Source: Clostridia bacterium
GTDB taxonomy: Bacteria > Bacillota > Clostridia > Oscillospirales > Acutalibacteraceae
NCBI GenBank assembly: GCA_017441385.1
Contig: JAFRXY010000105.1
Coordinates: 1 to 40,690 of the forward strand
Direction of reading: 5' to 3'
DNA: 40,690 bases
Part shown: positions 876 to 9,962 of the stretch, piece by piece
Numbering within the stretch: the first letter of the stretch is position 1
Layout of the letters: every line of letters begins with the position of its first letter
Made by a program: the position numbers and the translations under genes
Notes under the pieces: model-generated
Seen by the model: only the letters and a program-made list of their open reading frames with translations
Told to the model about the DNA's origin: nothing
Databases searched by the model: none

Positions 876-1518
876 TCATAGTCTCCATGCAGTCACCGCA
901 TACCACATTGACTTGCTTTGTGGCTCTCACACTGTTACCGCAACAAGGGCAAACGTATTTTCTGCTATGGCTTGCAACAGGCTTGACAGTGGGATTTACG
1001 CCGCCGCTTGACGTGTGCGTTCCCGTGCCGACAGCGGCGAAAGTGGGGACGATGCGGCACATTTCAATATCTCTCAGTTCGTCGTGCTCCAGTACCCAAA
1101 GGATCAAGTCATCATTCGGTTCAGTCTTGCAGTAACCGTATTTGTCTACACGCTCACAGTTCAGTCCGTGTGTCTCACATGCGGTTGCAAATGACTTGTT
1201 GTGGTATGTGCCGCCTCTTGACGTGTCCTGAATGTGAAGAATACAATCATTATACATGTGGCACATTTCGTGCATGAGAGAGGCAATGATATTTTCAAGA
1301 GGACGGTTGAGCGTGCCGCTTGCAATGTTGATTTCACGTCTGTATTCGTCCTTTGTTGCCCATGCGTTAAAGGGCGTATAGTGGGCGTAAGCCTTTGCCG
1401 TTGGTGTTACCGTAATAACGGGAGTAGGAAGTTCGTCATTGAAAAAGTCAGCGTTAAGAAGTCGGAAGGTTTTTTCAAGCTGATTTGTCAGCCTTGACAT
1501 GTTTGTTACCTGTTTCAT
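865..1518 (-). CDS. SprT-like zinc metalloprotease domain protein
   Basis: A 217-residue protein with a SprT-like domain. The HEMCH motif (HExxH) at residues 83-87 is the zinc-binding catalytic site, preceded by the REINIASGTL strand and LENIIASLMHEM helix typical of the family. The C-terminal part (about 188-213) has a CPCC...CGDC zinc ribbon, also typical of SprT/Spartan-like proteins. SprT-like proteases act on DNA-associated proteins in some systems; the substrate here is unknown. The start at 1518 is supported by AAGGAG 11 nt upstream. It sits between a small coiled-coil protein and a hypothetical protein in a leftward operon driven from the 2051-2080 promoter, inside the mobile element. 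Confidence 0.8.
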   Translation of the reverse strand: MKQVTNMSRLTNQLEKTFRLLNADFFNDELPTPVITVTPTAKAYAHYTPFNAWATKDEYRREINIASGTLNRPLENIIASLMHEMCHMYNDCILHIQDTSRGGTYHNKSFATACETHGLNCERVDKYGYCKTEPNDDLILWVLEHDELRDIEMCRIVPTFAAVGTGTHTSSGGVNPTVKPVASHSRKYVCPCCGNSVRATKQVNVVCGDCMETMIEC

Positions 1519-1607
1519 AAAATTTTAGCTCCTTTGATATTGATTTTCGGGAGCGGATAGTTTATAATATTTGTACCCGCTCCCTTTTGGTTTTGGATTT
1601 GTGGGTT

Positions 1608-1649
1608 AGCCCTTTGCGCTTGTTTGGCTTTTAGCGCAAGGGCTTTTTC
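1608..1649 (+). terminator. Strong stem-loop with T-run reading rightward
   Basis: AGCCCTTTGCGC at 1608-1619 pairs, with one bulge, with GCGCAAGGGCT at 1634-1644, followed by TTTTT. The T-run is on the plus strand although the flanking operon runs leftward, so it may insulate that operon from rightward transcripts. A second stem (GGGAGCGG about 1551-1558 with CCGCTCCC about 1577-1584) lies next to it. Confidence 0.5.
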
Positions 1650-1660
1650 CTTTGTGCCGC

Positions 1661-1936
1661 TTATGCGATACTGAACCGCTTGCTTGTTACCTGTTTCAGG
1701 TATGCCGTGTAGATTTCAGGCATTTTCTTCTTGAATGTTGTGCTGTCGAAACGCTGAGAGAGTACGGTTGTGTAGCGGATAATGTTTGTGCCGACCTCCA
1801 GTTCTTCAACGTCAAGCGTTATCAGTTCGGCTTTGAGTTCGTCCTTGATGGATTCAATCATTTCTTTGAGTTCGGCTTGCATGGTTTCAAGCTCTCTCAG
1901 TTCGTCAATCTTTTCTGTCATTTCGTTAGTTGTCAT
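1661..1936 (-). CDS. Small coiled-coil mobile-element protein
   Basis: A 91-residue protein. Residues 1-40 form a charged predicted coiled coil (KIDELRELETMQAELKEM). The C-terminal half carries YTTVLSQRFDSTTFKKKMPEIY and ends TSKRFSIA. Small proteins of this layout (N-terminal coiled coil, then a basic strand with SxRFD and a terminal RF-I-A) occur in phages and integrative elements of Firmicutes, with no function that I know. Ribosome site GGAG lies 10 nt upstream of the ATG at 1936. It is the first gene of the leftward operon containing the SprT-like protease. Confidence 0.7.
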   Translation of the reverse strand: MTTNEMTEKIDELRELETMQAELKEMIESIKDELKAELITLDVEELEVGTNIIRYTTVLSQRFDSTTFKKKMPEIYTAYLKQVTSKRFSIA

Positions 1937-2050
1937 AGTGGTTTATCTCCATTCATTCAAATTTTGCAATCGGGAGTGTCCCGCGCTTGTTGCCGCCTGT
2001 CCCTTTGGGACGTATCCGTTTCCAACGGTTTAACTCCCCCTCGCTGACTC

Positions 2051-2080
2051 TATCTTAGCACTATTTACGCAAATAGTCAA
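2051..2080 (-). promoter_or_regulatory. Leftward promoter of the SprT operon
   Basis: On the minus strand TTGACT (2080-2075), a 17-base spacer and TAAGAT (2057-2052). Operator palindrome O1 (2061-2076) fills the spacer, so bound repressor should block it. Confidence 0.65.
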
Positions 2081-2142
2081 GACGTAATTATGACCAAAGA
2101 TTGAAAGATATATTTGTGCAAATAGTCTATTTACGCAAATAG
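2061..2142. promoter_or_regulatory. Three operator palindromes in a divergent promoter region
   Basis: CTATTTACGCAAATAG occurs at 2061-2076 (O1) and identically at 2127-2142 (O3), with a near copy at 2110-2125 (O2, atatttgtgcaaatag). Arms CTATTT/AAATAG surround a 4-base centre. O1 lies within the leftward promoter; O3 overlaps the -35 of the rightward promoter. O2 and O3 are 17 bp apart. The likely ligand is the ribbon-helix-helix protein encoded at 2189 (inference). Confidence 0.7.
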
Positions 2143-2158
2143 AAATATGTGCTATAAT
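2130..2158 (+). promoter_or_regulatory. Rightward promoter of the CopG/Arc-like gene
   Basis: TTTACG at about 2130-2135, a 17-base spacer and a perfect TATAAT at 2153-2158. The -35 lies within operator O3. Confidence 0.65.
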
Positions 2159-2188
2159 AAACCGAATACTTTTATCAGGGGGATAATT

Positions 2189-2542
2189 ATGACGGTTAGA
2201 AAAAGTCAACAAAAGTGTGTAAATAAGTATATCGAAGGACATTATGACAGAATTAATTTAACAGTCCCAAAAGGGAAAAAAGAAATTATCAAAGCAAGTG
2301 CAGACAATAGCGGTGAAAGTGTCAACTCTTTTATAAATAGGGCTGTCGATATGCTGATAGCAAGCGGGGGTAGTAATGGTTTTATTCAGACAAAGGACGA
2401 TCAGGAATTAATAAGTTGCTTCATCTCCCACACAGAGCTTGAAAAAATAACCGCCTCTCTATCAGACGGAGAGACGGTCGGAGATTATGTCAGGGCAGCT
2501 ATTATAGATAAATTAAAGGCTGATACAGCGGCGCAACAGTGA
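2189..2542 (+). CDS. CopG/Arc-like ribbon-helix-helix regulator
   Basis: A 117-residue protein starting MTVRKSQQKCVNKYIEGHYDR. Residues 20-55 (RINLTVPKGKKEIIKASAD...SVNSFINRAVDM) match a beta strand followed by two helices as in Arc/CopG-type DNA-binding proteins. The C-terminal part (TELEKITASLSDGETVGDYVRAAIIDKL) looks like a second helical unit. The ATG at 2189 is preceded by GGGGGAT. Proteins like this commonly act as autorepressors or antitoxins; the three palindromes just upstream suggest it represses itself and the divergent SprT operon (inference). It is followed by the first hairpin-rich non-coding region. Confidence 0.7.
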   Translation: MTVRKSQQKCVNKYIEGHYDRINLTVPKGKKEIIKASADNSGESVNSFINRAVDMLIASGGSNGFIQTKDDQELISCFISHTELEKITASLSDGETVGDYVRAAIIDKLKADTAAQQ

Positions 2543-2786
2543 TTAAATGGAGCGATAGCAACGGGGCGTTTCCTGTTTTGGAATCGCTGACTTTCGCTCT
2601 TTTTTTGAGTAAAAGCACTCAGCTCACTATTGAGCTTAATAACCACTCCATTATTGGAACGGTCTAAGTTTAACTTAGTCCTGTTTTGGGATTAAGAATT
2701 AACATGTACTGAAAAGCAAGGACATCTCCGAATAGCATTTTGCTATCGAGGTTAATATAATACCGTCACGTTTTACGACGGAAATA

Positions 2787-2804
2787 TTGAATGTTATCGT
2801 TCAA
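2787..2804. repeat. 18-bp palindrome copy 2
   Basis: TTGAATGTTATCGTTCAA, within hairpin array A. Confidence 0.6.
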
Positions 2805-3209
2805 AAGCTAAATCCTGACGTCAGTATTATTGACGGCAGTTATCTTCATCATCAAAGCTGTCAGAATGAATTGTTACACCAGCCCTGAACTACATTCAAC
2901 TTTTGCGCCCCGCCACGCTGTCCAGAATGACTCTCGGTTAAATCTATGGTCATTAAATAGGGAGAGGGGGTACTCATTATCTGAGTAATATCTCAGGTAC
3001 CAAAACGGTACATCAGATTGAGCATGTTCCCAAAATGGGAATCTGCTATCAAAGGTCGTATTTTGCGACGTTAGGTTGTTATGGGGTAGCGAATCGCTAC
3101 TCCATGATTAACGGCGATAGCAATGGAGATTTGACAGCGTTGCAATTATGAGTGATTCACTGAATCCGATTCTGGATTGTGTGGGATATTCACTATGAAC
3201 AGTGTACGT

Positions 3210-3227
3210 TTGAATGTTGACATTCAA
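3210..3227. repeat. 18-bp palindrome copy 3
   Basis: TTGAATGTTGACATTCAA, the right end of hairpin array A. Flanking T and A extend the pairing by one on each side. Confidence 0.6.
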
Positions 3228-3322
3228 AATAATACAGCAAACGTATTTTGAAAAAATATGCCGTAATAGAATTAGATATTAAATGTTTTTTGTAGCATAA
3301 TGCCGATTTGATTTGCATAGTA

Positions 3323-3351
3323 TTGACAAATCTCATAAAGAGTGCTATCAT
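3323..3351 (+). promoter_or_regulatory. Strong promoter upstream of the replication-type gene
   Basis: A perfect TTGACA at 3323-3328, a 17-base spacer and TATCAT at 3346-3351. No good coding frame follows at once, so it probably drives a leader or small RNA starting near 3358. Confidence 0.65.
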
Positions 3352-3357
3352 GTAAGG

Positions 3358-3585
3358 GACAATTAAACAGGCAGTAAGATTCTGTATGCTCATAGTCTCG
3401 CCGTTGGCAGACGCTTTCATTAATTCGCTTCATCAAACTTCATTCATCATACAGGCTCACTTCAACACTGCATATCGTTATCGCTCACTTTTCTTTTTTG
3501 AAAAGCAAAAAGATTGGGTGCTTTTTAAGTGCACGTTTTTTGGGGGGGTTAATGGTATGCCTTGTTAGGTGTGCCTGTTTTTTTG
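3358..3585 (+). ncRNA. Candidate small RNA or attenuated leader
   Basis: About 228 nt from a strong promoter to a stem-loop with T-run. A 60-residue frame at 3386-3568 has no ribosome site and no recognisable features. The interior contains repeated TTCAT units (about 3418-3450), a GCAAAAAG / CTTTTT-type stem near 3489-3520 and a G7 run near 3542. Because it lies directly upstream of the winged-helix replication-type gene, it could be a copy-control RNA or a leader attenuator (inference). Confidence 0.4.
3554..3585 (+). terminator. Stem-loop with T7 run
   Basis: GGTATGCC (3554-3561) pairs with GGTGTGCC (3568-3575) through G-U pairs, loop TTGTTA, followed by TGTTTTTTTG. Confidence 0.6.
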
Positions 3586-3751
3586 TTCCTATCGAGAATT
3601 GGCTCTATAAGGCTCTCAGAGCGACTTATTTTAAATAGGCATAATTACTCGAAAAAGAGGTGAAAACGCAGCAGAGAGGCTTAGAGACGATTTTAGAGGC
3701 ATTGCATGGTGCAGACTAATGATTTACAGAAAGGAAGATTAATGTAGAAAA

Positions 3752-4369
3752 ATGAAACAAAATCCAAATCAAAGGAGCGTGATTATTCACTCTTCTGGAC
3801 GGGGAGTGATTACAAAAGATGAACTACTCTTAGCAACAAAGATATTAGGTAATGAAAGAAATTTAACGCCATTTATTTTGTTTGCTCACTTTGTCACCAA
3901 CGCAGACGGAGATTCTTTTGATTTCAGTCCGAAACAATTTGAGGCTAAAACAGGAATCAGCGCGGATAGGTGGAGAAACGCATTTTCTGAATTAATAAAA
4001 AAGGGGTATCTTGTTATTAATGAAAGCGGCGAAAACAGATTTGATTTTTATAGTCTACCGTCAATAGTTGATTTGGTGGATATACCTGCCGAGGTGGATA
4101 TACCTGCCGAGGTGGATATACCTGCCGAGGTGGATATACCTGCCGAGGGGGATATACCTGCCGACACGGATATTTTAAGCGAAGATCGTGCGAAGGAAAA
4201 AAAGAGGATGTTAAGAGGTATAATTGATGATTTGGCTGATACTATATCAGGCGGTGGGTTATATCAATCTTATGAACGTAAACAAGGCACATACCAAATT
4301 AGATCAAGCAGTCTAAAGCGTATTGGGGAAAATTCAGATGAAAATGATTTTGAGTTAGATTTTAGTTAG
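3752..4369 (+). CDS. Winged-helix replication-initiator-like protein with VDIPAE repeats
   Basis: A 205-residue protein. Residues 1-100 resemble the winged-helix N-terminal part of replication initiators or DnaD-like proteins of Firmicutes mobile elements (LTPFILFAHFVTNADGDSFDF, then a helix pair SADRWRNAFSELIKKGYLVI). Residues about 109-138 consist of a six-residue unit VDIPAE repeated four times plus a variant, encoded by 18-bp tandem repeats. The C-terminal 65 residues are charged and unrecognised. An AAGGAAG lies about 14 nt before the ATG, which is far for a ribosome site. The helicase-like gene follows 34 bases downstream, consistent with a replication module (inference). Confidence 0.65.
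   Translation: MKQNPNQRSVIIHSSGRGVITKDELLLATKILGNERNLTPFILFAHFVTNADGDSFDFSPKQFEAKTGISADRWRNAFSELIKKGYLVINESGENRFDFYSLPSIVDLVDIPAEVDIPAEVDIPAEVDIPAEGDIPADTDILSEDRAKEKKRMLRGIIDDLADTISGGGLYQSYERKQGTYQIRSSSLKRIGENSDENDFELDFS
4076..4165 (+). repeat. Five 18-bp tandem repeats within a gene
   Basis: The unit GTGGATATACCTGCCGAG repeats exactly four times (4076-4147), followed by GGGGATATACCTGCCGAC (4148-4165). The copies are identical at DNA level, implying recent slippage expansion. They encode VDIPAE. Confidence 0.95.
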
Positions 4370-4403
4370 TATGAACAAATAATAAATATGATAGGAGTAA
4401 ATT

Positions 4404-5732
4404 ATTATAGGAAATATCAAAGTTATTGATGAGCCGTGCGGCAGAGGAAAAACGTCTTTTGCTATTCAGTTAATGAACAGCGCACAGAATGAGAGTTTTA
4501 TCTATTGTACGCCCTTTCTGGACGAGGTGGAGAGAATAAAACGCGCTACGAATATAGGCATGAGAGAGCCGTCATACAAAGGCGGGCGAAAGTTGGATGA
4601 TTTTAACGACCTGCTCATGGATGGAGAGAACATTGTTGTTACTCACAGCACTTTTGCAAACGCCAACGCTGACACTTTAGAATTTTTGAGACAGGGTAAT
4701 TATACGCTGATTCTTGATGAGGTTTTGGATATACTCAATAATTATAATGATGTAGTCGGAGACAGTTTGAATAAAGCGGATATTAAATTGCTGATAAATG
4801 AGGGCTTTATCGAGGTTGACGATTACGGCAAAGTGGCATGGATAAAGGAATCATATCCTACAAGTAAATATTCCAATGTGGAAAGACTTGCAAGAAACGG
4901 TAATCTGTTTTACTTAGATGATACCATGTTGGTATGGCAGTTTCCGGCTGAGATATTCAGTACATTTAAGGAAGTGTACATTTTAACGTATCTTTTTAGA
5001 GGCAGTTACCTAAAGCCATATTTGGAGTATCACGAAATTGGTTACGAGATGAAAGGCATTGACAATAGCGGCGAAAAATATGTGCTTACGGAATACAAGA
5101 GCGACAAAGAGGATAGGGCAAAGCTAAAAGAATTAATCACCATTTACACAGACCCAAAACTTGAAGGCGAATATAAATCCTTTAAGCTGTCAAGTACATG
5201 GTTCAAAAAAAGAAGAGAAAAGAAACGAAAGCAGTCAAACGAGGATATTCAAAAGCTAAAAAACAGTATCTACAATTATTTTCGGAATAAAGCAAAAGCA
5301 AAGGCGTGTCAGATAATGTGGACGTGTCCAAAAGATTCAAGAAAGCAGTTAGAGGGCAAGGGGTACAAAGAGATCAGACGAATAACGGCAATAGAATTGA
5401 ATGGTTTGTCCGAAAAAGAAATAAGGCGGTTGAAAAACAAAAATAGCTGCTATGTAACACTAAATGCAAGAGCTACTAATGATTTTGGCGAAAGAAGTGT
5501 ACTCGCATACATAAATAATTTTTTTGCTCAACCATATATGAAAAGATACTTTGAAAATAAGAACGCCAAAGACGGAACGAATATTTCTGTCGATGAGGAT
5601 TATTTAGCGTTAAGTTGTATGATTCAATGGATTTGGAGAAGCCGTATAAGAAACGGCAAGTCGATAATAATATACATACCGTCTGATAGAATGAGGAACT
5701 TTTTTCTCAAATGGCTTGACGGAATAATGTGA
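4404..5732 (+). CDS. P-loop helicase-like protein with non-ATG start
   Basis: About 442 residues. The first ATG (4473) would delete a clear Walker A motif: translating upstream gives DEPCGRGKTSFAIQL (codons 4428-4472) in the same frame back to a stop at 4398-4400. The only available starts are ATT/ATA codons at 4401-4409; ATT at 4404 sits 6 nt after AGGAG (4393-4397) and is preferred. Further helicase-like features are VVTHSTF and LILDEVLDIL (Walker B). The basic middle (KKRREKKRKQ) and the C-terminal part are less conserved. Mobile elements of Firmicutes often carry such proteins in replication modules. An indel at 4400-4412 joining a frame from ATG 4388 is the alternative. Confidence 0.7.
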   Translation: MIGNIKVIDEPCGRGKTSFAIQLMNSAQNESFIYCTPFLDEVERIKRATNIGMREPSYKGGRKLDDFNDLLMDGENIVVTHSTFANANADTLEFLRQGNYTLILDEVLDILNNYNDVVGDSLNKADIKLLINEGFIEVDDYGKVAWIKESYPTSKYSNVERLARNGNLFYLDDTMLVWQFPAEIFSTFKEVYILTYLFRGSYLKPYLEYHEIGYEMKGIDNSGEKYVLTEYKSDKEDRAKLKELITIYTDPKLEGEYKSFKLSSTWFKKRREKKRKQSNEDIQKLKNSIYNYFRNKAKAKACQIMWTCPKDSRKQLEGKGYKEIRRITAIELNGLSEKEIRRLKNKNSCYVTLNARATNDFGERSVLAYINNFFAQPYMKRYFENKNAKDGTNISVDEDYLALSCMIQWIWRSRIRNGKSIIIYIPSDRMRNFFLKWLDGIM

Positions 5733-5744
5733 TAATTATTATCA
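5730..5744. repeat. Perfect palindrome at helicase stop codon
   Basis: TGATAATTATTATCA, beginning with the TGA stop of the helicase-like gene. It resembles the start of hairpin array B rather than a terminator. Confidence 0.5.
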
Positions 5745-5813
5745 ATTCAAGAAAACTCAAAACGCAACGCTCGATAGGTTAGGACGACCCCCTTGCTAAA
5801 ATTCAAAAAAAAC

Positions 5814-6573
5814 GCCCGATTTACGGGCTTTACGGGGTGCGACCCTTAAAGGCAGGAAATGATATAATATAAAATAATCCATAAGAAAAACAGAGGCGAT
5901 CAAGAGAGGGGTGAACGAATCGTTCAGCGTTTTATCAGCGGCATTCTGCATTGACTTTTTGGATTAAAAAGATTCTCAGTCATAAATGATGAAGCGAAGC
6001 TGAGATTTTGAAATGTTAATTTCAATTTATTAGTGAGACATTTTTGAGCGACCAATAATATACGGCGGACATTTTTGTCTATCGTTAAAAGGGGGCGGTG
6101 AATCGCCGCTTCCATTGTAAAAGATGAGGAACTGAAATAGACCGTCATGTAAAGAGTGTCTCCAAAACAGAGACCCCTTTGCTCCCCATTTTTGATGAGC
6201 GAAGCTAACAGACAATTTTGTCGTATAGTCAGAGCGGTAAATCATTGAGTCCAATTTCGGACTGAGTAAGCCTACATTAGGTGTGCCGTAAATTACGACG
6301 TACCGTATCGATCAGGGGGGAAAACTCAGTAACGAAATGTTATTGAGAAAGATGAAGCCCTATTTTAGGGCGTCATGAAAACGCTCTTTTTTGAGCGGGT
6401 TACATTAGCTCAGGGTTGATTTGCCCCCGACTATTTAGAATGGGTACGGTCTAAAACAGACCACACTTGTATTCCATTATTGGAAAGCAAGGACATTCCA
6501 AAGCGAAACAGCCTGTATTGATGACACTCGGTTGAATCTATGGTCATTCTCTCGTCTTCGGAGGATAGGGAGA
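5814..6573. repeat. Hairpin array B (non-coding)
   Basis: No convincing gene occurs in 5733-6906. Hairpins of exactly 15 bp are at 5814-5828, 5912-5926, 6095-6109, 6357-6371 and 6448-6462. Others are at 5955-5971, 6068-6079, 6158-6174, 6211-6222, 6248-6263, 6271-6281, 6287-6297, 6382-6397 and 6472-6485. The centres repeat those of array A: AAT at 5912 and 6095, AAAAC at 6158 and 6448, ATTTT at 6068, 6211 and 6357. Blocks at 6446-6454, 6473-6496, 6528-6548 and 6565-6573 match array A. Two overlapping minus-strand frames (5924-6254) are by-products of the hairpins. Confidence 0.7.
6008..6025. repeat. 18-bp palindrome copy 4
   Basis: TTGAAATGTTAATTTCAA, within hairpin array B. It matches copy 5 at 16 of 18 positions. 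Confidence 0.6.
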
Positions 6574-6590
6574 CAGCACAGAAAAGAGGG

Positions 6591-6841
6591 ATAACAACGG
6601 TATTTTTCGACAGCAGCTAAAAAAAATCAGTTTATCCACAGCAAAATACTTTAGTTAGTTAAAGTGCAGAACAACGGCATTTATCCTTTTGGATTATTGT
6701 TGGGTAAATCGCATAACAGCGGCGTTTACTCTATTGAATTATTTTGAATAATACAGTGATAAAGAGATAATAATGGAGTAATAAATGAGGGGATAATTCA
6801 ACAAAGCGGCGATACAGCCATAACAATGGTGATAACAAAGG
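6591..6841. other. Candidate origin-like region: DnaA box and repeated ATAACAA motifs
   Basis: A perfect DnaA-box sequence TTATCCACA lies at 6632-6640. Around it an AT-rich stretch has a degenerate repeat ATAACAnnGG at 6591, 6713, 6820 and 6832, with a variant at 6668, plus many GATAA words. This may be a replication origin of the element or only AT-rich leader DNA of the radical SAM gene. Repeat spacing is irregular. Confidence 0.35.
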
Positions 6842-6900
6842 GATAGAAATTTAAGAAAGAATTTTGTTGATATTTTACAAGAAATTATCAGAAAAGGAGT

Positions 6901-6920
6901 GTTGAAATGTTATCTTCAAC
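6901..6920. repeat. 18-bp palindrome copy 5, over a start codon
   Basis: TTGAAATGTTATCTTCAA at 6902-6919, extended by G/C to 6901-6920. The ATG of the radical SAM gene (6907-6909) is inside it, so a folded mRNA or bound protein could control translation. Confidence 0.65.
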
Positions 6921-8187
6921 AGATGAGACTACAATAATTGAACGGGAAACAAATTTGTGCGGCGACATTATCCTGAATGAAAAAAATACATCTTTTGAAA
7001 AGTATTCATTAGGGAATCTTGACATTGAGATAACAAGAAGGTGTAATTTTACCTGTAAACATTGCGGAAGGGGTAAGGCTCAAAATCTCACAATGACAAG
7101 GGAGATAATAGACAGGCTATTTAGCCAGATTAAAAATGTTACAGGCGGGATTTTATTAACAGGTGGAGAGGTAGCTCTTGAAATGGATATTATTGCCTAT
7201 TTTGTGAACAAATTGATTAATTGCGATTGGACACCCAAAGAATTACAGATAGGCACAAATGGTACATGTATGGAGGCTAACCAAAGATTGATCGAATTAT
7301 TGTGCAAGGTTGCTAAAGAAAAGAATATTTTAGGTGCTGTTTTTATCTCAGATGATTTATTTCACGCAGAGTGCGACAAAGAAAATTTGAGGTATAAATC
7401 ACTTGATTATTTCAAGAGTGAGGTCAAAAAAAGGGGGATGCTATTTAATCCGAACAAACCGGACGATGACAAAGGAAAGGTCAATGTTTTTGTTAAAGAT
7501 TTAAAAGAATCGGACGGTAATGATGGAGTTGTTGTAATTGGAAACGCAAGAGAATACATGGAAGAAATATCTCAAAAAGGCGTGAAACTTTTATGGGCAA
7601 TGGATGACGAACTGTTTATGTGTAATAATCACAAAATTCAGATAATTGACGGGGTTATTGGTTGTACATTATCGGTTTTGGCAAACGGCAATATTTCGAT
7701 TTGGCAGAATTATGATTATGATAGAGCCGATAAGTATTGTTTGGGAAATATTTTGTCCGAAGATTTTAAACCAATTATCGACAATCATAATGAAAAAAGA
7801 GCAATCTATCAATGCTTTGAATCAAAAAATTATTTGAATCTCAGAGCAAATAATGAGTATAACCGTGATTTTCCAAAAGACATGAGAGAGTTGTTTCGGT
7901 TTATGGAACTAAAATATAAGCTGACATTTAGAGCGCGGCAAGACGCATTACGGCTATATCCAGAGTTATCAGCAGATGAAATTGTAGCTTTATTCCCAGT
8001 GCTTACAGATTATGAATGGTTAATGATGCCTGAGTTTAGTAATTACGGCACGCCTCAAACTCCCAGAGAGGCTATTAACATAATCACCAATTGCAGGAAT
8101 GATTACGGAATTTATAGCTCTCCCAGAGACTACAGAGAAAACGCTATCAGAATAATAGTAGATGAATACATATCACAAAAATCATAA
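6907..8187 (+). CDS. Radical SAM enzyme of the mobile element
   Basis: A 426-residue protein with the CxxxCxxC iron-sulfur motif at C46, C50 and C53 (ITRRCNFTCKHC), which binds a 4Fe-4S cluster and S-adenosylmethionine in this superfamily. LLTGGEV near residue 86 is the GGE motif. A later Cys in VIGCTLSVLANGNISIW resembles the start of an auxiliary-cluster region, but a full SPASM Cys set is not seen. The C-terminal 120 residues are unrecognised. AAGGAG 7 nt upstream fixes the start. There is no precursor peptide or partner gene beside it. It stands alone between hairpin array B and the excisionase gene, bracketed by nearly identical palindromes. Substrate unknown. Confidence 0.85.
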   Translation: MLSSTDETTIIERETNLCGDIILNEKNTSFEKYSLGNLDIEITRRCNFTCKHCGRGKAQNLTMTREIIDRLFSQIKNVTGGILLTGGEVALEMDIIAYFVNKLINCDWTPKELQIGTNGTCMEANQRLIELLCKVAKEKNILGAVFISDDLFHAECDKENLRYKSLDYFKSEVKKRGMLFNPNKPDDDKGKVNVFVKDLKESDGNDGVVVIGNAREYMEEISQKGVKLLWAMDDELFMCNNHKIQIIDGVIGCTLSVLANGNISIWQNYDYDRADKYCLGNILSEDFKPIIDNHNEKRAIYQCFESKNYLNLRANNEYNRDFPKDMRELFRFMELKYKLTFRARQDALRLYPELSADEIVALFPVLTDYEWLMMPEFSNYGTPQTPREAINIITNCRNDYGIYSSPRDYRENAIRIIVDEYISQKS

Positions 8188-8188
8188 A

Positions 8189-8206
8189 TTGAAATGATAA
8201 CTTCAA
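8189..8206. repeat. 18-bp palindrome copy 6
   Basis: TTGAAATGATAACTTCAA, starting one base after the stop codon of the radical SAM gene; 16 of 18 identical to copy 5. AAAGCAAGG (8205-8213), a word shared with both hairpin arrays, overlaps it, and a CCCTGATTCAGGG hairpin (8218-8230) follows. Confidence 0.65.
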
Positions 8207-8296
8207 AGCAAGGTACGCCCTGATTCAGGGTATACCGAAAATACAAAAAAAGGGGGGGAGCCGAAATGGACACCCCCTAAAGGAGGAAATGGTTTA

Positions 8297-8518
8297 TTGA
8301 ATAAAACAGAAAAGAGTCAAAAGATGATTGATCCGCCTACATTTGCAGACTATCCCGATATTGTTACGGTGAAACAACTCAGGCAGATGTTAGCAATCGG
8401 ACATAATCAGGCATTAGACCTTGTACACAGCGGAGAGATCAAAAGTTTTAGAATTGGAAGAATGATAAAAATACCGAAAAACAGCGTGATAGACTATATT
8501 GCAAGTCAAATAAATTAG
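8297..8518 (+). CDS. xis: Excisionase-family helix-turn-helix protein
   Basis: A 73-residue protein with the excisionase/MerR-type winged helix: VTVKQLRQMLAIGHNQALDLVHSG, then IKSFRIGRMIKIPKNSVIDYI. In integrative elements such proteins bind att-flanking DNA and steer the integrase toward excision. The start is TTG at 8297, 10 nt after a perfect AGGAGG (8281-8286). An ATG at 8289 is out of frame and stops after three codons; the internal ATG at 8324 has a weaker site. The integrase follows 107 bases downstream. A G-run/C-run stem (about 8251-8278) lies directly before the ribosome site and could regulate it. Confidence 0.8.
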   Translation: MNKTEKSQKMIDPPTFADYPDIVTVKQLRQMLAIGHNQALDLVHSGEIKSFRIGRMIKIPKNSVIDYIASQIN

Positions 8519-8537
8519 AACGAATCCAAATAAACAA

Positions 8538-8586
8538 TTGACAAATGAGCCGTCACAGGCTAAACTATAATTCAGCTAATGACGGC
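8538..8586 (+). promoter_or_regulatory. Integrase promoter spanned by an inverted repeat
   Basis: TTGACA at 8538-8543, then TAAACT at 8561-8566 (17-base spacer) overlapping a TATAAT at 8566-8571. GCCGTCA (8549-8555) and TGACGGC (8580-8586) form a 7-bp inverted repeat around the -10, suggesting an operator or a leader hairpin controlling the integrase. Confidence 0.55.
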
Positions 8587-8625
8587 TTGTTTGGCTGCTA
8601 ATCGGTTAGGAGGTATTCATTTTTA

Positions 8626-9780
8626 ATGATTAGCGGAAGCATACAGGTTAAAAAAGGAAATTGTTACGCCGTGCTTGTATTGCCTACTTCCAATGGTAAA
8701 AACAAAATCAAGTGGGTAAGCATGGGAATGAAGGCGACAGAGAGCAAGCGTAAGCAAAAGCAAAGACTTGACGAGATAAGGGTTGAATACAGCGGCATTG
8801 CGTCTATCGAGGCAATAGAAACCAAATTTTGTGACCTCATTGTAAAGTGGAATGAGGAAACCAAAGAGGATAAATCCATTACCACATACGACAATTATTG
8901 TCACATGATTAACAAATACATCTACCCTTATTTTAGCGACAAAGGCTTTACACTTATGGAGCTACGACCCGCAGACATTCAGGCATATTACAGACATCTT
9001 AAAAATTTAGGGCTATCAGGTAAGACAGCCGTAAACCATCACCAGATTATTTTTACCAGTTTGAAATATGCCGTGCTGAATCGAATCATCAAAGAGAATC
9101 CCGCAGAGTTTGTCAAACGACCGAAAATCGAAAAGACAGAGCGGGAAACCTACAGCGCGGACGAGCTTGTAAATTTGATCGAAGCTGCAAAGGGCGATGT
9201 TTTGGAATCCGTTATTTTCTTGACTTTGCTTTATGGATTGAGACGTGAAGAAATACTCGGATTGAAGTGGACTAATATTGATTTTGAGCGGCATCAATTC
9301 AGAATATGCGAAACAGTCGTGCGCGGGAAGGTTGACGGTAAGTGGGTAAGAGTTGAACGCCACGCCACGAAAACAGCGACAAGCAATAGATTATTGCCAT
9401 TAAATCAGCAGATCGAAACGTATTTGCAGAATCTCAGAGCGCAACAGGAATCAAACAGACAGATGTGCGGAGACTGCTATATTAATTCTGATTTTGTATG
9501 CGTCAATACGATGGGAGAACCAATAAATCCCGATTATGTGACGCACCACTACAGCGACCTATTGAAGAAGTCAGGATTAAAGAAGATCAGATTTCACGAT
9601 TTGCGGCACAGTTGCGCGTCATTCCTTTATTGCATGGGCTTTACGTCAGGGCAGATACAAGATTGGTTAGGACATTATTCTGAATCATTCACCAAAGCAA
9701 CCTACATACACCCCGATATGACATTCAAGTTTGAGATGTTAGATAGATTAACCGCAGGGCTTATTGGTGAGAATGAATAA
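8626..9780 (+). CDS. int: Tyrosine site-specific integrase
   Basis: A 384-residue phage/ICE-type integrase. An N-terminal arm-binding segment (1-60) and a SAM-like core-binding domain (65-165) precede the catalytic domain. Catalytic residues visible: R206 (YGLRREE), H324 and R327 in HDLRH, H350 in WLGH and the nucleophile Y360 in TYIHP. GGAGG lies upstream of the ATG. The gene ends 105 bases before the tRNA-fMet 3' end, with tandem repeats between them, so the element integrated into this tRNA. Confidence 0.95.
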   Translation: MISGSIQVKKGNCYAVLVLPTSNGKNKIKWVSMGMKATESKRKQKQRLDEIRVEYSGIASIEAIETKFCDLIVKWNEETKEDKSITTYDNYCHMINKYIYPYFSDKGFTLMELRPADIQAYYRHLKNLGLSGKTAVNHHQIIFTSLKYAVLNRIIKENPAEFVKRPKIEKTERETYSADELVNLIEAAKGDVLESVIFLTLLYGLRREEILGLKWTNIDFERHQFRICETVVRGKVDGKWVRVERHATKTATSNRLLPLNQQIETYLQNLRAQQESNRQMCGDCYINSDFVCVNTMGEPINPDYVTHHYSDLLKKSGLKKIRFHDLRHSCASFLYCMGFTSGQIQDWLGHYSESFTKATYIHPDMTFKFEMLDRLTAGLIGENE

Positions 9781-9806
9781 ATAGCTAATCCCCTTTTTGA
9801 TAGTCA

Positions 9807-9828
9807 ATTTTAGAACTATTTTAGAACT
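9807..9828 (+). repeat. Tandem 11-bp direct repeats, likely integrase arm sites
   Basis: ATTTTAGAACT occurs at 9807-9817 and 9818-9828, between the integrase gene and its tRNA target. Placement and length fit arm-type binding sites. Confidence 0.55.
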
Positions 9829-9843
9829 CACGCAAAAAAGAAA

Positions 9844-9884
9844 AGCACCCGATTTACATAAAACCCGTAAATCAGGCACTTTTC
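9844..9884 (+). terminator. Terminator after integrase
   Basis: GATTTAC (9851-9857) pairs with GTAAATC (9867-9873), extended past a mismatch, with AAAA before and TTTT after. It lies directly against the tRNA 3' end. Confidence 0.5.
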
Positions 9885-9885
9885 A

Positions 9886-9962
<77 letters not shown>

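Follow-up and report, generated by a model that had tools for sequence, protein, structure and literature searches.

Few large non-coding RNAs of phages and their satellites are known, and the available text of two reports gives their functions as unknown (PMC12286853, PMC7567579). For ICP1 and for the PLE satellites, the second report describes the most abundant transcripts as predicted non-coding, and in the PLEs such non-coding stretches contain the origin and are the source of the most abundant transcript (PMC7567579). Here we analysed a stretch of 40,690 nucleotides from a Clostridia bacterium of the Acutalibacteraceae (contig JAFRXY010000105.1, positions 1–40,690; hereafter the window), which includes part of a small satellite-like island with two non-coding arrays of short hairpins, R1 (2571–3227) and R2 (5814–6573), neither assigned to a strand. 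Between R1 and R2 lie two replication-like genes, which encode a DnaD-like protein and a YonV-family superfamily 2 (SF2) helicase-like protein. The PLE satellites, as far as their available description goes, resemble this island in being small and in having a long non-coding stretch, a likeness at the level of description. The origin of P4 is made of two parts, ori1 and crr, which are separated non-coding regions around replication genes and have sequence in common. This layout is also that of R1 and R2, but the arrays differ from P4 in their many unlike hairpins, and no iteron-like direct-repeat family was seen inside either of them among the 20 families listed of at least 60.

ROOL (RF03087) and GOLLD (RF02032) are similar to the arrays in being non-coding, several hundred nucleotides long, strongly folded and carried by phage-like mobile elements. 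Membership in either family was rejected, as the array regions had no covariance-model match up to E 10; Rfam as a whole gave no match at the gathering score in the window and none up to E 10 in 2500–3760 and 5730–6910. Of 200 genomes of the bacterial family, a single one, not that of the island, carries ROOL (locus L132, 1501–2048, E 3.4e-82), while GOLLD was found in none, a result shared by the controls, which likewise gave no match at all. Unlike the arrays, the L132 ROOL is poor in local hairpins, with 4 versus 2.7 expected, compared with 14 versus 3.6 in R1 and 10 versus 4.3 in R2. We propose, with a probability of roughly 0.4, that R1 and R2 are a related pair of large structured RNAs, or domains of RNA (about 650–760 nt), of the satellite-like island.

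The arrays stand out by their hairpin density. When hairpins with stems of at least five pairs and loops of three to eight nucleotides were counted against 100 dinucleotide shuffles, short hairpins reached 2.5 to 4 times the shuffle level, with 13 in R1 (shuffles 3.44 ± 1.88, maximum 10) and 10 in R2 (4.01 ± 1.65, maximum 9). At stems of at least six pairs, R1 retained seven (shuffle mean 0.82, maximum 4) and R2 four (mean 1.09), the latter being only a tie with the best shuffle. Six other scored regions, coding controls included, had counts near or under chance at stems of at least five: the gap 3260–3740 (2 versus 2.9 in shuffles), the rep genes (10 versus 10.6), the radical SAM gene (5 versus 8.4), the integrase gene (3 versus 6.1), 1–2140 (12 versus 11.0) and 6580–6900 (3 versus 2.1). 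Shuffled sequence, named beforehand in an initial annotation of this DNA as the control on which the claim of hairpin arrays could fail, thus did not equal the arrays. Both regions are also non-coding, as had been claimed: the list of open reading frames has none of at least 80 aa within R1 or R2, and the longest ones overlapping them, both on the minus strand, comprise 75 and 74 aa.

Other parts of that annotation held less well. All twelve 15-nt units it had listed are present, each with four to six outer Watson–Crick pairs in a row, although those at 3055 and 6095 include one G–T pair each and that at 2972 lies inside a longer repeat of 17 nt. However, the proposed uniform unit of 15 bp could not be upheld, with just 9 of 23 maximal Watson–Crick hairpins having this length and the others spanning 13–18 nt. 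The more than twenty inverted repeats, taken to form two arrays of such units, do exceed chance but are not of one kind, three of them (2787, 3210 and 6008) being copies of a separate 18-bp dyad. This dyad, which is element-wide, the terminator-like nature of the hairpin at 5814 and a 28-bp block shared by the arrays had gone unmentioned. The annotation had also conjectured that an element-encoded factor might recognise the hairpins by their loops, or that they might be mini-palindromes that had been inserted.

Composition and folding energy point to the fold as the conserved property, in line with the earlier claim that pairing is kept while stem sequence changes. Chance hairpins in sequence of 41% G+C, the content found here, are expected to have A/T-rich stems. 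In the 20 array hairpins that remain after exclusion of the three dyads, stems have a G+C content of 0.49 and loops of 0.19, versus 0.31 and 0.42 in shuffle hairpins, and this stem-minus-loop difference was reached in 0 of 5000 resamples of shuffled hairpins. Three-base loops on stems of at least six pairs consist of A/T only in 6/6 array hairpins versus 38/129 in shuffles. Local folding energies (span 40, 200 shuffles, G–U pairs allowed; tested on 2540–3250 for R1 and 5800–6620 for R2) gave z scores of −6.58 on the plus and −5.73 on the minus strand for R1, and of −4.95 and −4.23 for R2, while three coding stretches of the same element ranged from −1.88 to +1.20; folded as whole regions on the plus strand (20 shuffles each), R1 and R2 scored −4.65 and −6.17. 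Density, the stem/loop G+C split and local folding energy are thus all beyond shuffles, and the array hairpins look shaped by selection for single-strand folding. The fold itself would be the selected trait, because protein sites on double-stranded DNA need no stable stems with weak centres.

Despite their unlike stems, the arrays have sequence in common. A 28-bp block, itself an inverted repeat with arms ATGAC/GTCAT, occurs in R1 (2927–2954, plus strand) and, 93% identical, in R2 (6521–6548, plus strand), with a local E value of 1.7e-6 between the regions. Smaller shared blocks, TCCATTATTGGAA and AAAGCAAGGACA, lie amid the dissimilar stems. Besides, a pattern drawn up post hoc, after its sites had been seen, AAAGCAAGG, has three matches in the window versus 0.03 expected, all on the plus strand: one in R1 (2713–2724), one in R2 (6484–6495) and one (8205–8216) in the gap 8185–8300 behind the radical SAM gene, which is a third well-folding stretch (z −3.71).

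Searches for relatives of these sequences returned little. By blastn, R1 was found only in its own genome among 300 genomes of the family, and had no relatives in phages and plasmids. R2, in a search confined to 295 genomes of the order and hence outside phages, plasmids and metagenomes, gave only four foreign short matches (22–43 bases, E 1.2e-4 to 8.6e-4), and the one inspected looks coding; against its own genome, each array retrieved itself and the 28-bp block only. A 21-base pattern of the core motif was absent from viral contigs, while genome contigs gave one exact 19-base match, archaeal and coding by eye. In relaxed form the pattern matched 22 viral stretches, all in stop-to-stop frames of 78–1291 codons; neither companion motif occurred within 350 bases of any of these (0/22), and four of them had 9–11 hairpins nearby, as raw counts outside any shuffle baseline. 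The second motif had no match in viral contigs, and a covariance model of the 28-bp core recovered only its own two copies in 220 genomes and none in the contig that carries the other part of the island. In the literature, no title or abstract opening describing such arrays was found in a search with most subscription journals outside its reach. As relatives were not found in any collection searched, conservation cannot be shown, and this would suit a relic without present function whose palindromes had built up, for example through replication slippage. We nevertheless regard such a relic as quite improbable, given that G+C-rich stems with A/T loops are unlike chance hairpins and that a block shared at 93% argues for constraint.

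The loops bear on which molecule folds. The initial annotation had sorted them into an AAT class and separate A-run and T-run classes. The first exists but is small (3086, 5912 and 6095), whereas the other two merge: AAAAC/AAAAT centres are the reverse complement of GTTTT/ATTTT centres, and the arrays hold 9 A-run-centred and 10 T-run-centred hairpins, with about 2.4 and 2.7 expected from shuffles. On a single RNA strand, this balance means mutually complementary loops; on DNA, it means strand symmetry. A possible correspondence between the arrays is seen in two plus-strand AAT-loop hairpins, at 3079–3107 in R1 and 6091–6113 in R2, each of which comes after a T-loop hairpin of its own array (3055 and 6062). 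Their stems differ, that of R2 being paired with three G–T. This is the sole case that looks like one hairpin with compensated stems, and two sequences are no proof.

Two types of repeated palindrome or hairpin were considered and dismissed. REP and BOX elements are copies of a single palindrome scattered over a genome; here the stems are unlike each other, and the arrays find nothing in their own genome beyond what is given above. In CsrB-type sponge RNAs, numerous hairpins display the same loop motif; this type was ruled out by the varying loops, A-centred in nine hairpins and T-centred in ten.

We lean slightly towards RNA over DNA, since so many dissimilar stems (ten to twenty in 700 nt) are more reminiscent of a large structured RNA than of familiar origins. 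A further reason for this slight lean is that a satellite family, in the available part of its description, makes abundant non-coding RNA (PMC7567579). In 150-nt windows, moreover, folding usually favours the plus strand. Were the arrays RNAs, they would be transcribed on the plus strand together with the gene preceding each, the shared blocks would form the conserved core of both, the complementary A-rich and U-rich loops might base-pair with one another, and the helicase or some other protein of the island might act on the array RNAs during replication or mobilisation. Several observations, however, weigh against the proposal. The plus-over-minus folding excess also occurs in two of three coding controls; when G–U pairs are disallowed, the minus strand of R1 has a slight folding advantage, and as a whole region R1 has a z score of −6.84 on that strand versus −4.65 on the plus strand. 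Extended stems show no more G–T relative to A–C (22:15) than coding controls do (56:30), with interior wobble counts of just 3:0, and A- and T-centred hairpins are balanced at 9:10. No promoter-like site was found on the plus strand in 2159–3272 or 5277–6724, in a scan running at about shuffle level (29 versus 25.8 sites). The single ROOL RNA that served as a yardstick shows a much lower number of local hairpins, and the collections searched hold no array homologs and hence none for covariation.

Some of these same features would fit DNA, in that the loops are strand-symmetric and G–T is not in surplus over A–C. It is possible, if on the whole less likely, that R1 and R2 act in cis as two portions of a DNA origin of the island. 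Either strand, when single-stranded, would then fold into the hairpins, which could also take the form of small cruciforms; the YonV-family helicase, a primase or the DnaD-like protein would open or use them, and the 28-bp block and AAAGCAAGG would serve as protein sites. The position of the arrays on either side of the DnaD-like and SF2 helicase genes, the inverted-repeat nature of the 28-bp block and the best solved matches of the helicase, XPD and DinG, speak for an origin. Yet no iteron-like family was seen within the arrays among the 20 repeat families listed, some twenty stems, all unrelated, within 700 nt would be unusual among familiar origins, and yonV loci in general do not have their densest hairpins nearby (20/80 within 1 kb). 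If the DNA reading is true, the arrays would be a candidate substrate for YonV. We consider it unlikely, though worth stating, that they represent a new class of hairpin-studded RNAs, or of single-stranded DNA regions, that occur as a pair flanking a YonV-family SF2 helicase gene on a small satellite island. Each member would have ten to twenty unlike G+C-rich stems, mutually complementary A/T-rich loops and one conserved 28-nt core, and would be remodelled by the helicase. A hairpin-dense non-coding pair beside a helicase on an 11-kb island would offer a small, tractable system for the function of such structures.

A different role is suggested by gene order, as R1, R2 and the gap 8185–8300 each lie behind a plus-strand gene. 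The arrays might then be regulatory message ends, that is, 3′ untranslated regions or leaders whose stem-loops set decay, attenuation or protein titration, with no separate RNA gene. Terminator-like sites in 1500–9900 exceed shuffles (15 versus 5.3) and the rep-gene leader (3352–3600) is strongly folded (z −4.87), both of which agree with this. But within the arrays just two such sites, 5912 and 6367, are on the plus strand, 650–760 nt is long for a region of this type and the loops are not one repeated protein site, so that we give message ends little credence. Identification of the hairpins with intrinsic terminators or attenuators was likewise rejected, only the same two passing on the plus strand. 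On the minus strand, five array hairpins are terminator-like (2636, 2781, 5828, 6371 and 6397), among them that at the start of R2 (5814–5828), which is followed by a T run on this strand.

The helicase-like gene between the arrays (4401–5732, plus strand) belongs to the family of SPbeta YonV, phrog_2467 (E 2.3e-54, from the ATG at 4473). The portion of a report on yonV available to us places the gene in an operon context and reports no function for YonV (PMC5848175). Within the reading frame that stops at 5732, the P-loop precedes the first ATG and follows the in-frame stop at 4398, with no GTG or TTG ahead of it either; because of this arrangement, translation probably starts at an ATT or ATA codon (within 4398–4410). 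A homolog elsewhere (locus L012, about 2500–2520, minus strand) has, by eye, the same start arrangement. The predicted structure of the protein (443 residues, mean confidence score pLDDT 87.6) has an XPD/DinG-like fold and matches SF2 helicases. Its best solved match is XPD (3crv, E 5.9e-7, TM score 0.48 by query), DinG ranks eighth (9kqh, E 2.5e-5), and RNA helicases are also among the matches. XPD and DinG are DNA helicases. Among 50,697 phage records, 55 match the family, as do 28 of 72,556 plasmid records.

A general association of yonV with hairpin arrays, to which two Macrococcoides plasmids had pointed, was not upheld. In 80 of 352 viral loci surveyed, with near-duplicates kept in, the densest hairpin window lies within 1 kb of the gene in just 20, and this zone makes up roughly 3 of 11 kb. 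Among 16 further yonV loci, the window included, two Macrococcoides plasmids (L015 and L021) are densest just before yonV. Like the arrays, their gaps hold hairpins of 15–17 nt with differing stems directly ahead of the yonV homolog (7 versus 0.78 and 6 versus 0.99 in shuffles, reached in 0/200), and between the two plasmids one stem differs in sequence yet stays paired. Unlike the arrays, their loops are not A/T only, and their sequence has only short, weak matches to the window. In L021, the stretch ahead of yonV (3998–4507) forms an imperfect inverted repeat of 190 nt (69%) that encloses hairpins, and its folding z scores are −11.67 (plus strand) and −8.22 (minus strand). Four 15-nt hairpins with 3-nt loops and unlike stems were also noted in an Acinetobacter phage-plasmid (L022, 18201–18386), mostly before an ArdA gene, where a 500-nt window holds six hairpins versus 0.82 in shuffles.

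The 18-bp dyad, TTGAA-N8-TTCAA with a similar centre, is of another nature, probably operator-like, as opposed to a variable-stem hairpin. The 2.66-Mb genome has 12 sites, eight of them within the 11-kb island: at 858, 2787 (2787–2804) and 3210 (3210–3227), the latter two in R1, 6008 (6008–6025, in R2), 6902 and 8189 of the window, and at 8224 and 9101 of the adjoining contig (C79, locus L117), with no strand assigned to those in the arrays. One dyad spans the start codon of the radical SAM gene and another lies just past its stop; the SprT-like gene and the recombinase gene have further copies at their ends.

The adjoining contig overlaps the window start by 141 bp, and the island extends over 11,181 bp, as computed from coordinates, from L117 8152 to window 9885. 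It is bounded by a 45-bp direct repeat of the 3′ part of tRNA-Met, the right attachment (att) copy lying inside the tRNA gene at 9886–9930 and the left one at L117 8152–8196, neither assigned to a strand. As in phage satellites, an integrase and an att repeat are present while structural genes are absent: no structural or transfer genes were recognised among nine window proteins scanned and the L117 frames inspected by eye. Judged by eye, the L117 part has genes for an antitoxin-like protein and a serine recombinase. Those in the window part specify a YoeB-type toxin (E 1.1e-34), a weakly Arc-like protein (E 6e-4), a SprT-like protein just below the Pfam cut-off, the radical SAM protein and a tyrosine integrase, the last preceded by a 73-aa frame that is excisionase-like by eye. 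The DnaD-like gene (3752–4369, plus strand; phrog_186, E 8.5e-4, a weak match) contains tandem 18-nt repeats, that is, six-codon units, at 4075–4173. Ahead of the rep genes, 3323–3600 includes the top promoter-like site of the scan (TTGACA-17-TATCAT), and the 5′ end of the strongly folded leader pairs with a stretch overlapping a terminator-like T run, an arrangement reminiscent of attenuator-like control. Over the promoter of the gene at 2147–2542, CTATTTACGCAAATAG occurs in two exact copies and one weaker one (2061–2142) and appears operator-like.

Two congeners carry islands with a 68–69% identical integrase at the same att; in the stretches compared by blastn, one of them partial owing to a short contig (L131), only integrase, excisionase and att were in common with the present island. 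Just outside the left att, L117 7806–8018 encodes a C-terminal fragment resembling a tyrosine integrase, which, judged by eye, could be what is left of an element that occupied this tRNA site before.

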